Below, piece by piece: positions 10,936-24,016 of a stretch of DNA of 32,250 bases. The stretch is taken from IMG/VR virus record IMGVR_UViG_3300027836_000327, positions 1 to 32,250 of that record; one strand, written 5' to 3'. The notes below the pieces were generated by a model. The model was not told the origin of the DNA. It did no database searches and saw only the letters and a list, made by a program, of their open reading frames with translations. Position 1 is the first letter of the stretch. Each line of letters opens with the position of its first letter. This DNA is from a virus. The position numbers were made by a program, and so were the translations under genes.

Positions 10936-11556
10936 TTATTGTTTTATGATCTTTTCTACTTTGTTAATACCGCCGCCTAACATCATACGAGCCATAAGCA
11001 AATTGTTATCGCCCTTAACATAAAAGTAAGTTCCACCCCAGCTGTGATTGCGTTTTAACGCTACTTCGCAGCTTTTTGTCAATTTTAGCTTACTATTTCC
11101 GCTAGCCCAGTCTACAAAATTTTCGTGACTTTGACGGGTTCTGCCCATAGTTACACGGAAATCAAACGGTATTTTAGGAAGTATAACTGTATTTGCAACT
11201 AATGACGCAGTATCCTCTGGCACACTAGTATATTTTACTCTATCGCTATTAAGATCAACCAGTCTGTCTATGTCTGCTTTGTCGTTAGAGTAGAAGCTTA
11301 ATAGCGGACTTTCAACTCTAATTTCAAAGTTTTTTAACTTAGCCAATGCCTTAGCTAGCTTAACACAATAAGCAAGATCCTCTGGACTTTTTAATTTATT
11401 ATCAAAAGTTTTCTTATCTGTAAAACTAAAAGCTGCCAGCTTTTCGAGAGCGTAATCCAAGTTACATCCTCTAAACCAACTGGCAGCTGGAACTACCAAT
11501 ACTGCTTTGTATTGGTATTTTCCGTGGAACAGTTTCCTAGTCTTCTTGACTAACAT
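10936..11556 (-). CDS. Conserved phage protein, unknown function, coupled to clpA
   Basis: A 206-residue basic protein with no signal peptide or membrane segment. Visible features are an N-terminal KKTRKLFHGKYQYKAVLVVP, an internal RVTMGRTRQSHENFVDWAS and a C-terminal KRNHSWGGTYFYVKGDNNLL that reads like beta strands around an aromatic pocket. It overlaps the end of clpA by 20 bases in another frame, so it is cotranscribed and probably translationally coupled to that gene. Similar proteins exist, as I recall, in T4-like marine phages without a function. A partner or substrate adaptor for ClpA would be speculation based only on position. Confidence 0.82.
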   Translation of the reverse strand: MLVKKTRKLFHGKYQYKAVLVVPAASWFRGCNLDYALEKLAAFSFTDKKTFDNKLKSPEDLAYCVKLAKALAKLKNFEIRVESPLLSFYSNDKADIDRLVDLNSDRVKYTSVPEDTASLVANTVILPKIPFDFRVTMGRTRQSHENFVDWASGNSKLKLTKSCEVALKRNHSWGGTYFYVKGDNNLLMARMMLGGGINKVEKIIKQ

Positions 11557-13807
11557 GTTCTTTTATGTCCGATACTAGTAACGGAATCTTCGGAGTCTTA
11601 GGCTTAGCAACAAGTTGTAGTTTATTGTCTACAACTGTGATAGCCAACCATCCACCATTTTTAAGGTCACCGAACAACATCATCTTAGCAAGGTCACGTT
11701 TAATTTCCTTGTCAATAATACGTTGTAGTGGACGAGCGCCCATCTTAGGATCAAATCCTTTTTCGATCAACCACTCAACAGCTTCTTTGTCAGTCTTAAT
11801 ACGAACTGCTTTCTCTTTAACTTGCTCACGGAGTTCATCCATAAACTTGTTAACGATCTTAGTCATAGTAGCTTTACCTAGCTTGTTAAATGTAACAATG
11901 CCGTCTAAGCGATTACGGAACTCAGGAGTTAAGAACTTCTTCAAGTCTGCATCGCTATATGCTTTTTCTTGACTACCAAAACCGATTGCATTCTTTTCTG
12001 CATTTTGCGCACCAGCATTAGTAGTAAGAATAAGGATCAGGTTACGGCAGTCTGCTTGTTTACCATTTGAGCCAGTAATAAAACCGTTATCCATCATTTG
12101 TAGCAATACTGTGCTTACATCTGGATGTGACTTTTCAATTTCATCAAACAACAAAACAGCGTTTGGATTCTCTTGAATTTGTGTAATCAATTGACCAGCA
12201 TTGTCTTCAAAGCCAACATAGCCCGGAGGACTACCAATTAGCTTAGAGATACTGTGCTTTTCTTGATATTCTGACATATCAAAGCGCAATAACTTAGAAC
12301 CTAAGTGTTTAGCAATAGATTTAGCAGTTTCAGTTTTACCTGTTCCTGTTGGGCCCATGAATACAAACGACCCAACTGGTTTGTTAGCCGGCTTTAGTCC
12401 TGCACGAGCAACAATAATCTTATCAACAACTTCTGTAATTGCGGCATCTTGTCCGTATACTTCTTCTTGAATCTTTGTTTCAAGAGTTGCGATGTTTTCG
12501 CTTTCTTGCTCTGCTACAACTTCCTCTGGGATTTGAATCATCTTAGCAAGTTCAAATTGAATCTCTTGCTCGCCGATCACTCGTTCATCAGCTAATTTCA
12601 AATTAAAGCGTGAGCAAGCACAGTCGATTAAGTCAATTGCCTTGTCTGGCAATTTCTTATCTGATTGATATTTAACTGACAACTTAATGGCAGCAGTTAG
12701 AGCATCGTCTTTGATTTTAACATTGTGATGTTGCTCGTAATACTTCTTAATGCCTTTAAGGATCTGAAGTGTAACTTCTGTAGTTGGCTCGTCAACAGTA
12801 ATACGTTGGAACCTGCGCATTAGGGCACGATCCTTTTCGAAGTGCTTGCGATATTCTTCCCATGTCGTGCTAGCAATGACTTTAATTGTGCCCTTAGACA
12901 ATGCAGGCTTCATCATGTTACTCAAGTCGTTAGCTGAGTTGCTTGCACTACCGGCGCCGCTGATCATGTGTGCTTCGTCAATGAACAAGACAGTCTTGCC
13001 TTTCTTTTGCAATGTCTTGATAACAAGTTTAAAGCGTTCTTCAAAGTCGCCACGATATTTACTACCAGCAAGCATAGCACTAATGTCTAAGTTATAGACT
13101 GTATAGTCTTTTAAGAAATCAGGAACTGCACCTTTAATAATATTAAACGCAAGGCCTTCTGCAATAGCAGTCTTACCAACACCTGGGTCACCTACAAGGA
13201 TAACGTTGTTTTTATTCCTACGTCCTAGTGCAAGACTGATGTTTTCAAGTTCTTCAACACGTCCGATAACAGGATCTACTTTTCCTTTCTTGACAGCATC
13301 ATTTAAGTTGCTTGTAAATGCTCTAAGGGCTTTTTCTCCCGCAGCATCTGGCATATCTTCTTCTTCCGGTGTATCTGATGAGTTATTAAGGTAATCGGCA
13401 AACTTGTCTTTGTCGACACCCGCTTGTTGGATATAAAAATATGCCCATGATCGTTTTTCGCCGATCATTGATAGGAATACATCGCTAGGTTCAATGCGTT
13501 GACGTCCGTTGAATAGGACTTGTGTAAACGCACGATTCAGCACACGCTCAACTGATTGAGTTTTTTTAGGTTTAACCACTACTTCGTTAACAGTGATCTC
13601 GTCACACTTGTTTTTCAAATAGTGTTCTAGATTCTTTTTAATGTAGTCCGGGTCACTACCGTATCCTTGCAAGCAGTTACTAAATGACTCCTCGCATAGC
13701 ATGGCAAAAAGCAAATGCTCGATCGTTAAGTATTCGTGTTTGAGCTGTCGGGCTGTTTCAATAGCCTTTTCAAATACCGCTTGTAAATTATCACTTGGTT
13801 CAACCAT
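11537..13807 (-). CDS. clpA: ClpA-like AAA+ unfoldase
   Basis: A 756-residue two-ring-domain Clp ATPase, close to E. coli ClpA in length (758). The N-domain (2-140) includes the helical repeat LTIEHLLFAML. D1 has Walker A GDPGVGKT (206-213), Walker B VLFIDEA (273-279) and arginine finger RRF (331-333). D2 has GPTGTGKT (485-492), LLFDEIEK (552-559) and sensor 2 GARPLQR (690-696). There is no long middle coiled coil, which separates it from the disaggregase ClpB. IGF at 608-610 falls where ClpA has its ClpP-docking IGL and ClpX has IGF, so docking to host ClpP is likely; no clpP or clpS gene is in the window. AGGAAA precedes the ATG, and a sigma-70 promoter lies at 13833-13861, suggesting early expression. 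Confidence 0.95.
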   Translation of the reverse strand: MVEPSDNLQAVFEKAIETARQLKHEYLTIEHLLFAMLCEESFSNCLQGYGSDPDYIKKNLEHYLKNKCDEITVNEVVVKPKKTQSVERVLNRAFTQVLFNGRQRIEPSDVFLSMIGEKRSWAYFYIQQAGVDKDKFADYLNNSSDTPEEEDMPDAAGEKALRAFTSNLNDAVKKGKVDPVIGRVEELENISLALGRRNKNNVILVGDPGVGKTAIAEGLAFNIIKGAVPDFLKDYTVYNLDISAMLAGSKYRGDFEERFKLVIKTLQKKGKTVLFIDEAHMISGAGSASNSANDLSNMMKPALSKGTIKVIASTTWEEYRKHFEKDRALMRRFQRITVDEPTTEVTLQILKGIKKYYEQHHNVKIKDDALTAAIKLSVKYQSDKKLPDKAIDLIDCACSRFNLKLADERVIGEQEIQFELAKMIQIPEEVVAEQESENIATLETKIQEEVYGQDAAITEVVDKIIVARAGLKPANKPVGSFVFMGPTGTGKTETAKSIAKHLGSKLLRFDMSEYQEKHSISKLIGSPPGYVGFEDNAGQLITQIQENPNAVLLFDEIEKSHPDVSTVLLQMMDNGFITGSNGKQADCRNLILILTTNAGAQNAEKNAIGFGSQEKAYSDADLKKFLTPEFRNRLDGIVTFNKLGKATMTKIVNKFMDELREQVKEKAVRIKTDKEAVEWLIEKGFDPKMGARPLQRIIDKEIKRDLAKMMLFGDLKNGGWLAITVVDNKLQLVAKPKTPKIPLLVSDIKEHVSQED

Positions 13808-13832
13808 TGTGTTTCCTGTAAAGTTTTAAACT

Positions 13833-13861
13833 ATTATACACTTACTTTTTACTGTTGTCTA
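13833..13861 (-). promoter_or_regulatory. Sigma-70-type promoter for clpA
   Basis: -35 TAGACA (13861-13856), a 17-base spacer and -10 TATAAT (13838-13833) on the minus strand. The -35 lies in the last codons of dnaJ. The predicted start near 13826 gives a leader of about 19 bases with AGGAAA before the clpA ATG. This lets clpA be transcribed apart from dnaJ. Confidence 0.7.
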
Positions 13862-14709
13862 CTAATTTCGTGGTCAATTAATCTTAATTTTTCCACAATA
13901 GCAGGATCTAAAACTTCTGTTGATTTAATTTTAATTTGAGCAACGTGTCTACCACGCATATTACTGTTTACTACATTGAATCCGTGTCCGCTAACAGCAT
14001 ACTCAGTTCCGGTTTCAACTCCTGCTCGAACATCGATATTTAATCTTTGTCCGCCTAGAGTTACAATATGTTTCTTGCAACCGATCATAGCTTCTATCGG
14101 ACTAACTTCTAGAGTAGAAATTACATCGTTACCTTCTCGACGATAGTTTCGATCCGGCATAACTAGAATTGTAACGTTCAAGTCACCGCGCTGTAAACTA
14201 GGATGACTATCATCGCCTAGCCCAGCATACTTGATTGTTGCCCCGTGTTCAATACCTGACGGAACATTAATAACTACAGTCTGCATTCTACCGCTCGGTA
14301 GTTGATAACTTGCTTCAAGTTGCTTGCCGTTATACGCATCCATAAGGGTAACTTGGCATTGGATATTTAAATCTCGATTCCGATGAACCCGCCGTTGCCC
14401 AAATATGTCACCGAAAGGGCTTTGACCAAATGGATTGCCGCCGCCGAAGATATCGTTGAAGTCTTGGAATCCTTGGCCGCCTGTTCTAAAGTGCATTTGC
14501 GGTCCGCCGCCCATACGCATTTGATCGTATTCGGCTTTCTTTTGCTGATCGCTTAGTGTTGCATAAGCGCCCTGTATCTCTTTAAATTTAGTGTCATCTC
14601 CACCCATTCTGTCAGGGTGGTGTTTCATTGCCAATTTTCTATAGGCAGATTTAATTTCGTCTTGCGTAGCAGATGAATCAACGCCAAGCATTTGGTATAG
14701 ATCATTCAT
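13849..14709 (-). CDS. dnaJ: DnaJ/CbpA-type Hsp40 co-chaperone
   Basis: A 286-residue J-domain protein. The J-domain (1-68) carries HPD at 31-33, the tripeptide that stimulates DnaK ATPase. A Gly/Phe-rich region follows (MGGGPQMHFRTGGQGFQDF, then GGGNPFGQSPFGDIFG). The C-terminal substrate-binding domains begin near 105 (RNRDLNIQCQVTLMDAYNG) and include the GDLNVTILVM strand. The CxxCxGxG zinc repeats of true DnaJ are absent, so it is a type B, CbpA-like Hsp40. It presumably directs host DnaK to phage clients. The ATG at 14709 has no clear ribosome site. A consensus promoter lies at 14742-14770, and a short frame starting at 14734 ends across the dnaJ start codon, so translation may be coupled. 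Confidence 0.95.
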   Translation of the reverse strand: MNDLYQMLGVDSSATQDEIKSAYRKLAMKHHPDRMGGDDTKFKEIQGAYATLSDQQKKAEYDQMRMGGGPQMHFRTGGQGFQDFNDIFGGGNPFGQSPFGDIFGQRRVHRNRDLNIQCQVTLMDAYNGKQLEASYQLPSGRMQTVVINVPSGIEHGATIKYAGLGDDSHPSLQRGDLNVTILVMPDRNYRREGNDVISTLEVSPIEAMIGCKKHIVTLGGQRLNIDVRAGVETGTEYAVSGHGFNVVNSNMRGRHVAQIKIKSTEVLDPAIVEKLRLIDHEISRQQ

Positions 14710-14734: not shown

Positions 14735-14765
14735 AATAGTAATTATACTATCTAACGCTTACCCT
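14722..14765 (-). terminator. Inverted repeat around the dnaJ promoter; possible terminator or operator
   Basis: AGGGTAAG (minus strand, 14765-14758) and CTTACCCT (14729-14722) form an 8-bp inverted repeat, followed by ATTTTTA. The inner ATAGTA-TAAT-TACTAT is also palindromic, and the whole is centred on the -10 box. Read-through RNA from the gene at 14991 would fold into a terminator-like hairpin; in DNA the repeat could be an operator. Confidence 0.5.
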
Positions 14766-14770
14766 GTCAA
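14742..14770 (-). promoter_or_regulatory. Consensus sigma-70 promoter for dnaJ
   Basis: TTGACA (14770-14765), a 17-base spacer and TATAAT (14747-14742) on the minus strand are perfect matches at both boxes. This is the strongest promoter seen in the window and should be read by host RNA polymerase on entry. It lies in the 69-base gap before dnaJ. Confidence 0.88.
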
Positions 14771-16161: not shown

Positions 16162-16926
16162 TTATTTTTGAGTTTTTTTAGTTAACTGTTGCTTTATTGC
16201 CTGTGCGGCTTGGTTACGCTCTTTACCCTTAAGTCCTGCAGGGTTAACAGTCTTAGTTGCCTGCTTAGAAGTCTTACCTAATCCGACCTTTGTTTTAAAA
16301 TACCAGATAGATGTTAACGCAGCTTCTTTAGGATTTGATGATAATAATTCGGGATTGTTTATATAGATGCTAGGATTTTCTGGATGAACTGAAGCACCCG
16401 CTTGTGCATACAGTTCTCTACCAGTAATGTGTATAAAGCCACGACCTCGGTATTTCCACCCGTCACCGCTAGCCTCATCACCATTGCCGTTCTTATTTGA
16501 CAACGCTCTGTTGGCCAATGCAACTTGATTACCGACATATGGCTCTGCGTGTTTAGGAGATGGAAAGTTACTAGTAAACACTTTGTAAATTCTAACCGGG
16601 TCACTATACTTAAAACTTTCGGCAGCTTTGGACCAGTTGCCTGTTTCAATTTGACACTGGCCTAAAAAGCTAGATAGGTCAGATGCCTTGACTAATCCCT
16701 TTGCTTTTGCAATCTTAATTAACAAGTCTTTAAAACTTAACGGGTTAAATGGCGCTGGCTCTGCTTTTGCAGTAGATACCATCTTTGGCGCGGGTGTTGC
16801 AGCCTGATTAACAGTTGGTTTAACAGTTGGCTTACTTGGCTCTTTATAATTCTTATCTACTACAATAGCAGATCCCGGGACCGCAGCCGAAGGCTTTTTT
16901 TCAGTCCACAACTCTCTGAGTATCAT
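16162..16926 (-). CDS. GH19-type lysozyme with N-terminal extension
   Basis: A 254-residue protein. Residues 1-60 are an extension starting MILRELWTEKKPSA, the short motif shared with the virion block, followed by a Pro/Thr/Ala linker. The catalytic domain (about 61-240) is glycoside hydrolase 19-like: FLGQCQIETGNW with E94 as likely acid, E103 as likely base, and YRGRGFIHITGRELY (159-173). It should cut peptidoglycan glycan chains. There is no signal peptide. It overlaps Rz by four bases (ATGA). A second, shorter GH19 gene lies on the other side of the spanins. The extension makes a virion-borne lysin plausible, leaving the shorter enzyme as the endolysin; this division is inference. Confidence 0.88.
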   Translation of the reverse strand: MILRELWTEKKPSAAVPGSAIVVDKNYKEPSKPTVKPTVNQAATPAPKMVSTAKAEPAPFNPLSFKDLLIKIAKAKGLVKASDLSSFLGQCQIETGNWSKAAESFKYSDPVRIYKVFTSNFPSPKHAEPYVGNQVALANRALSNKNGNGDEASGDGWKYRGRGFIHITGRELYAQAGASVHPENPSIYINNPELLSSNPKEAALTSIWYFKTKVGLGKTSKQATKTVNPAGLKGKERNQAAQAIKQQLTKKTQK

Positions 16927-17547: not shown

Positions 17548-18180
17548 TTAACCTTGCAGAACGTGTATTGCGTGTGCGTAGTGGTGCTTGCGATCTTCTA
17601 AGCCAATAGTTCCGCCGTTGATACGCTTAGTCATTGTTAAGATATCACCGTTGTCTGCCCATTGGTTTAAGTTAGTAGTTTCCCAGAACCAACATGCTGA
17701 TTGGATTGCGCCTTCGAATGTTGCTAAAAATTCTGGAATTTCTTCAACTGGGGTTTCAATTGATTCAGCAAATCGAGTATAGTTTTCTTTACCGGTTAGT
17801 TGAATAAGTCCACGACCACAGTAACGGAAACCGTCGCCTGAATGCTCATCACCGTTGCCCATACGTCCACCGTAGACACGGTTAGCAATCATCTCTGGCT
17901 TCTGAGCATACGCGGCTGCTAAGTCGTCTGTTGGAAAATACTTAGGGAACACCTTACGTAGTGTTACTGCTCGATAGTTTAAATTCTCTTTAAGTGCCTT
18001 AAACCCACCCGACTCATGAGCGCATTGTGCTAAAAACGCAGCAACACGTGGAACTGTGTTGATGTCATAGTCTGGCAAAATCTTACATAGAGCTTCATAC
18101 CAGTGATCTAAGTATGGGTTACCAGGAATAATCTTTCCTAGTTTTTCTTGTGTAAAATCAAAATCAAATCCGTCTGCCAT
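17548..18180 (-). CDS. GH19-type lysozyme (endolysin)
   Basis: A 210-residue glycoside hydrolase 19-like endolysin made almost wholly of the catalytic domain. FLAQCAHESGGF (49-60) carries the likely catalytic acid E56, KENLNYRA (64-71) the second glutamate E65, and YCGRGLIQLTGKENY (120-134) the substrate-groove motif. MGNGDEHSGDGFRY precedes the last and matches NGDEASGDGWKY in the second lysozyme, so the two are paralogues. There is no signal peptide or SAR anchor, so it needs a holin for release. GGAGAAACTATA precedes the ATG, and the start overlaps the upstream stop by one base. It is followed directly by Rz/Rz1, giving a lysis cassette. Confidence 0.93.
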   Translation of the reverse strand: MADGFDFDFTQEKLGKIIPGNPYLDHWYEALCKILPDYDINTVPRVAAFLAQCAHESGGFKALKENLNYRAVTLRKVFPKYFPTDDLAAAYAQKPEMIANRVYGGRMGNGDEHSGDGFRYCGRGLIQLTGKENYTRFAESIETPVEEIPEFLATFEGAIQSACWFWETTNLNQWADNGDILTMTKRINGGTIGLEDRKHHYAHAIHVLQG

Positions 18181-23629: not shown

Positions 23630-24016
23630 TTAGAAAGACGGGCTACTAAAGTCAAAGTTGTTTTCAACGCGATGGGTTTCAATCCCAAACCCAGCTTCAC
23701 CTGGGTTGTCGTCCGATACCAGCATGATTGCTTTGGTATCGACCATTCTAATGATAACTTCGTTACCAGTTTCGTCCTCGACGGTTATACCACGAGTCCA
23801 TCGACCATGTTCTACATAGATCCAGTCACCAATCTTAACATCGTGCTGTTCCGGGCCAACTGCCCACACTTTGCCCCACCTAGGTCTAACACCTTCACTC
23901 TTACCATCGTCAGATGCAATAAAGATACCACTTTTGGTAGTTTGAGAACCAAAATACATATCAGTAATCATTACCTTGTCGTGTAAGGGTGTTATTTTAC
24001 CTTTAACTACGTTCAT
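23630..24016 (-). CDS. 31: GroES/gp31-like co-chaperonin
   Basis: A 128-residue co-chaperonin. KITPLHDKVMITDMYFG (7-23) begins the GroES beta-barrel. QTTKSGIFIASDDGKSEG holds the mobile loop that contacts GroEL, and VGPEQHDVKIGDWIYVEHG is the typical second barrel motif. The final 20 residues (GIETHRVENNFDFSSPSF) are an extension beyond GroES. T4 gp31 replaces host GroES and enlarges the GroEL cage for folding major capsid protein gp23; the same role is likely here. The gene starts one base before the end of the 92-aa gene (TAATG) and ends at a strong terminator. Confidence 0.9.
   Translation of the reverse strand: MNVVKGKITPLHDKVMITDMYFGSQTTKSGIFIASDDGKSEGVRPRWGKVWAVGPEQHDVKIGDWIYVEHGRWTRGITVEDETGNEVIIRMVDTKAIMLVSDDNPGEAGFGIETHRVENNFDFSSPSF

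Follow-up and report, generated by a model that had tools for sequence, protein, structure and literature searches.

The Agrobacterium phage Atu_ph07 has been described with ClpX, ClpA, ClpB, ClpP, ClpS and DnaJ (PMC6102473), so the combination of ClpA, ClpP, ClpS and DnaJ in one phage has already been reported. An overview of jumbo phages mentions ClpA, ClpP, ClpS and DnaJ individually, with host ClpAP proposed as the machine that ClpS serves (PMC7824862). The placing of dnaJ beside clpA is likewise already annotated, in Atu_ph07 and in PA5oct. Here we consider such a dnaJ-clpA pair in a 32,250-base IMG/VR virus record (IMGVR_UViG_3300027836_000327), which we call the window and analysed as a fragment of a jumbo phage of roughly 350 kb. 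We prefer the view, reached from sequence comparison and given a probability of roughly 0.6, that the phage owns a ClpA-ClpP-ClpS (ClpAPS) protease together with DnaK, DnaJ and Hsp20, expressed early from host-type promoters, and that GroEL and probably GrpE would come from the host.

The clade compared for ClpA comprises 80 phage relatives, whose ClpA is 79-89% identical to that of the window. Their records include three long, near-complete ones of 345, 356 and 383 kb.

ClpA and the genes for ClpP and ClpS

The coding features on which the argument turns are these:

13849..14709, minus strand: dnaJ, a class-B-like J-domain protein without zinc finger, 286 amino acids (PF00226, PF01556), upstream of clpA in relatives
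11537..13807, minus strand: clpA, a double-ring AAA+ unfoldase, 756 amino acids (TIGR02639, 866 bits; PHROG 4871, 833 bits; 80 phage relatives)
11978..11986, minus strand: IGF tripeptide of the ClpP-docking loop, residues 608-610 (invariance in the clade; alignment to the E. coli IGL loop)
13367..13807, minus strand: ClpA N-domain with the ClpS-contact residues E25, E30, T83 and R88 (conservation; structure match)

The domains of the protein stand in the order that marks a ClpA: a Clp N-domain, then two AAA+ modules, then D2-small (PF02861, PF00004, PF17871, PF07724, PF10431). The two Walker A/B sets and the two pore loops are all found, and are fully or largely invariant across the 80 relatives. 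The score for the best NCBIfam model, TIGR02639, falls short of the 993 bits set as its equivalog cut-off, and the matching PHROG is annotated 'ATP-dependent protease'; judged by its sequence, the protein is ClpA-like and lies outside NCBI's equivalog.

ClpP-dependent Clp ATPases are marked by a docking-loop pattern, [IVLM]G[FL], in D2. The window's IGF (codons 11986-11978) conforms to it, and an earlier note on this DNA had placed it correctly at residues 608-610. IGFG is invariant in 81/81 sequences, the window and its 80 relatives, against conservation of only 41% at position 607 and 30% at position 612; an invariant motif amid variable neighbors fits selection for docking on ClpP. The same note had set IGF against the IGL of ClpA. 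IGL is the textbook state of E. coli ClpA (PMC7707817), and the contrast holds for E. coli-type ClpA only: among 80 bacterial ClpA/ClpC loci the aligned tripeptide is IGF in 50, MGF in 10, LGF in 4, VGF in 3 and IGL in a single one (Erwinia). IGF as an unusual or ClpX-like trait is thus ruled out, since no tripeptide is commoner at this place in bacterial ClpA.

The window, which reaches 18.4 kb upstream of clpA, holds no clpP within its 32 kb. Absence of a gene from 32 kb of a 350 kb genome is no guide to what the phage contains. clpP lies 40.7-55.4 kb upstream of clpA, on the same strand, in all seven records that reach at least 55 kb upstream, and the contigs of the 12 relatives without it extend less than 50 kb upstream of clpA. 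Wherever a relative's contig extends as far as the locus, the gene is therefore present, and the claim that the phage has no clpP was an artefact of the fragment. The record L009, one of these seven, combines a ClpA 86% identical to the window's with a ClpP 62% identical to E. coli ClpP. The earlier note had taken ClpA for an adaptor to host ClpP and had itself named a clpP elsewhere in the phage genome as the observation that would tell against this; relatives, L009 among them, have that gene, which contradicts the proposal. The Ser-His-Asp triad is kept in all 20 phage ClpPs aligned, and 14/14 GenBank clpA phages tested have a ClpP-family gene (PF00574). It is possible that in the more divergent of these phages the gene has a head-maturation role, as some records annotate.

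The residues of E. coli ClpA that contact ClpS are E23, E28, T81 and R86 (PMC12493166). They correspond to E25, E30, T83 and R88 of the window, which are invariant in the window and in 77/77 relatives. Over the whole N-domain, identity to the N-domains of four bacterial ClpAs is only 23-30%; with these four added, 16 of 147 columns stay invariant, the four contact residues among them (by a rough estimate made after the fact, chance would pick four invariant columns about once in 7,000). The predicted N-domain (predicted local distance difference test, pLDDT, 92.6) matches ClpA in the ClpA:ClpS crystal 1r6o with a Z of 21.2 and a root-mean-square deviation of 1.7. ClpB and ClpC N-domains match it almost equally well, so the fold alone cannot separate ClpA from ClpB. 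The earlier suggestion of a divergent N-domain that may choose new partners loses weight in view of the invariant ClpS docking residues.

A search of two long records for clpS found it in both, 111-116 kb upstream of clpA (with the 383 kb record treated as circularly permuted); a third long record has it 115.7 kb upstream. clpP and clpS thus occur together in three near-complete relatives, the window's own genome being known from the 32 kb fragment. In 80/80 phage ClpS sequences the partner residues E79, E82 and K84 are kept, as are the Asn, Asp and His of the substrate pocket; the roles of these residues are described in PMC12493166. It should be noted that phage CBB has a ClpS match, yet its ClpA is without the contact residues, so the co-occurrence of the two is not strict.

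The chaperone genes, their promoters and their neighbors

The DnaJ has the HPD motif, and only the J domain (PF00226) and the C-terminal domain (PF01556) match. The zinc finger that a class A DnaJ carries between its G/F region and C-terminal domain is lacking, there being no CxxCxGxG repeats in the 286 residues. dnaJ is upstream of clpA in 77/77 relatives holding the region. Two promoter matches and one further gene adjoin the pair:

14742..14770, minus strand: dnaJ sigma70-type promoter, TTGACA-N17-TATAAT, 12/12, conserved in position and sequence in relatives
13833..13861, minus strand: promoter-like match before clpA, 11/12 in the window, not conserved, probably not functional
10936..11556, minus strand: 206-amino-acid phage-only protein, overlapping the clpA end by 20 bp, with no Pfam or PHROG match

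The dnaJ promoter alone among the window's sigma70-type matches scores 12/12, as the claim that dnaJ has the strongest promoter requires. In relatives it scores 12/12 in 42 of 58 and 10-11 in the remainder, and it stands 31-33 nucleotides before the ATG in the 14 listed. A promoter of its own had also been claimed for clpA. In the closest relatives (86-89% identical) the corresponding site scores 7-8/12, no better than shuffled sequence, and for this lack of conservation a separate clpA promoter was rejected as improbable. Upstream of clpP in relatives no promoter of the TTGACA-N17-TATAAT type was found.

In 80 IMG/VR contigs clpS is part of a cassette on a single strand, in the order dnaK, hsp20, clpS, heme oxygenase, bilin reductase (members assigned by Pfam; contigs L209-L288, also L091:2955-6925 and L092:5802-9750). 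The cassette is without exception where the contig is long enough: dnaK and hsp20 are present in 77/77, heme oxygenase and bilin reductase in 71/71. In 69 of 79 the interval between dnaK and hsp20 has a sigma70-type promoter (11-12/12). Perfect TTGACA-N17-TATAAT sites are rare, numbering 111 in 3.69 million strand-bases, about 69 of them before dnaJ or hsp20; as the loci were picked for these two genes, the enrichment is one of position and not a genome-wide statistic. Both of the long records in which dnaK was sought contain it, and in the third the clpS cassette and clpA are found. The near-complete relatives thus have a dnaK of their own, which speaks against the earlier idea of an adaptor for host DnaK.

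The overlap of clpS with heme oxygenase is 4 bases in 70 of 79 contigs. A Clp adaptor is thereby paired with heme-catabolism genes; heme oxygenase with PcyA/PcyX is known in freshwater phages (PMC11480375).

A co-chaperonin gene lies about 9.8 kb from clpA, in keeping with the distance of 9 kb given before:

23630..24016, minus strand: gp31/GroES-like co-chaperonin, 128 amino acids (PF00166, 34.4 bits against a cut-off of 21.1; PHROG 931/3188)

Its Cpn10 match is above the Pfam cut-off. Neither GroEL nor GrpE was found in the phage records searched, so the gp31-like protein would still need host GroEL and a phage DnaK would need host GrpE. The proposal that the phage serves host GroEL therefore stands.

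The 206-amino-acid gene follows clpA in 79/80 loci, the remaining locus being cut. Its predicted structure is confident (AlphaFold pLDDT 90, best of five models). The candidacy of its product as a known ClpA adaptor was rejected, with no PDB match at E < 0.001 and fold matches in BFVD to proteins of uncultured phages and Atu_ph07 only. A peptide deformylase gene lies between dnaJ and clpA in 57/77 relatives (e.g., L013, L028, L053, L060 and L078), an order also seen in Sinorhizobium phage Phosso; the window and its closest relatives have none there. The dnaJ-clpA block sits among putative lysis and structural genes. Two neighboring endolysin-like genes of the window, 16162-16926 and 17548-18180, belong to one family, PHROG 181 being the best match for both.

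The Acinetobacter phage MD-2021a contigs and the Salmonella AFYI record were left out of the phage evidence, as they look like bacterial contigs. The former (GenBank CAKLQF/CAKLQH) carry clpA/clpS, clpB, dnaK and hscA and resemble pieces of a bacterial chromosome. A hint of a methanotroph host through AmoC (PF04896) proved uninformative, the control being without any match.

A proposed phage-owned protease and its alternatives

We infer from synteny in the relatives that the window's own phage has clpP, clpS and dnaK. What the window contains would then be a single operon from a wider set of protein quality-control genes owned by the phage. dnaJ and clpA would be transcribed early from the host-type sigma70 promoter, the timing being suggested by the promoter type and by what is known of such promoters in T4 biology. 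The J-protein Rki of phage RB43, which is expressed early, lends support to this timing (PMC3486835). The ClpA hexamer would dock by its ordinary IGF loops on a phage ClpP tetradecamer, encoded about 50 kb upstream, and its N-domain would accept the phage ClpS, encoded about 111-116 kb upstream. The resulting ClpAPS protease would select substrates by their N-degrons, and DnaJ, with phage DnaK and Hsp20 and host GrpE, would hold or refold proteins otherwise destined for degradation by ClpAP. That the complex assembles, that N-degrons guide its choice, when it acts and whether it targets host or phage proteins are points that we infer. The proteostasis module proposed in the earlier note would in this case be more complete than was claimed there, and its part as a set of adaptors for host ClpP and DnaK, in place of which the relatives carry proteins of their own, would fall.

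Some observations weigh against a phage-owned ClpAPS. Certain residues of phage ClpP that we take to line the docking pocket partly differ from those of E. coli, for example F to K at position 112 in 4/6. In the E. coli ClpP sequence used as reference S97, H122 and D171 check out; a literature search on the pocket positions found nothing. No phage copy of Aat, the leucyl/phenylalanyl-tRNA-protein transferase (PF03588), was found in the records searched, so N-degron substrates would need another source.

Other explanations have to be considered. The phage might supply adaptors only (ClpA, DnaJ and gp31), redirecting host ClpP, DnaK and GroEL. The IGF loop could dock on host ClpP, the window is without clpP, Rki of RB43 acts on host DnaK (PMC3486835), and a phage GroEL was not found. 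This is nevertheless unlikely, as relatives encode their own ClpP and DnaK; the GroEL part is uncontradicted, and mixed complexes of phage and host subunits are possible. We consider it distinctly improbable that ClpA works independently of ClpP and serves virion assembly as an unfoldase or chaperone. A function as a translocase or in assembly has been proposed (PMC7824862), the ClpA of phage fENko-Kae01 was detected by liquid chromatography-tandem mass spectrometry, the docking loops of RaK2-type ClpAs are degenerate (IGV, IGM, LGM, MGM and MNM in L096-L099, L101 and L103-L106), and the setting among lysis and structural genes would suit such a role. Such a ClpA would hardly account for the strict conservation of the IGF loop in the clade, the canonical ClpP that accompanies it or the host sigma70 type of the dnaJ promoter.

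There is little to make us expect, finally, that the module has no specific substrate and, by refolding proteins and removing aggregates in a generic way, helps the host to survive the stress of infection or counters its defences. DnaK, DnaJ and Hsp20 are general chaperones, and Attai et al. suggest a stress role in Atu_ph07 (PMC6102473); the ClpS substrate pocket, kept in 80/80, suggests selected substrates instead. This explanation is compatible with a phage-owned protease.

If the phage owns the whole of ClpAPS, infection could include selective, phage-directed proteolysis and not just the use of ClpP taken from the host. With the docking face and the substrate pocket of ClpS intact, changes in N-degron substrates during infection would be predicted. 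Put more broadly, and only tentatively, freshwater jumbo phages of this clade may carry a complete ClpA/ClpP/ClpS N-degron machine and a DnaK/DnaJ/Hsp20 arm that act early from two matching host-type promoters and determine the fate, destruction or refolding, of proteins of host and phage.

Comparison with known systems

In the searchable literature, which mostly leaves out subscription journals, no phage with the whole of ClpAPS and DnaK/DnaJ/Hsp20 was found, nor the five-gene cassette. Moraphages are similar in being large freshwater phages with ClpA, DnaJ, DnaK and Hsp20; they differ in their Bacteroidota hosts, and the text describing them does not mention ClpP and ClpS (PMC12619734). Phages of the RaK2/121Q/GAP32 type have a ClpA of about 760 amino acids, annotated as ClpA-like, but with a degenerate docking loop, with the ClpS-contact residues mostly changed and with no dnaJ beside clpA. 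In the RaK2-type phages the degenerate loops occur alongside divergent ClpP-family proteins, a possible co-divergence or possible loss of ClpP docking.

The PA5oct group (Wroclawvirus, Pseudomonas phage) comes closer: dnaJ and clpA adjoin, the loop is IGF, and clpP and clpS are in the genome. Its ClpA is 42% identical to the window's, its ClpP about 50% identical to that of the relative L081, and it is not among the DnaK matches listed. The ClpA of PA5oct (NC_071039.1, 193641-195743) is called 'porphyrin biosynthesis' in RefSeq and ClpA in GenBank, the former probably a misannotation inherited from PHROG 249. Atu_ph07 has dnaJ directly upstream of clpA, a ClpA with IGF, and ClpP and ClpS in one jumbo genome; it differs in that its ClpA is only 40% identical, in having ClpX and ClpB as well (PMC6102473) and in being absent from the DnaK matches listed. 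E. coli ClpAPS differs in having IGL and not the window's IGF, and its N-domain is only about 24% identical, whereas the order of domains, the docking loop, the ClpS-contact residues and the ClpP triad are common to both.

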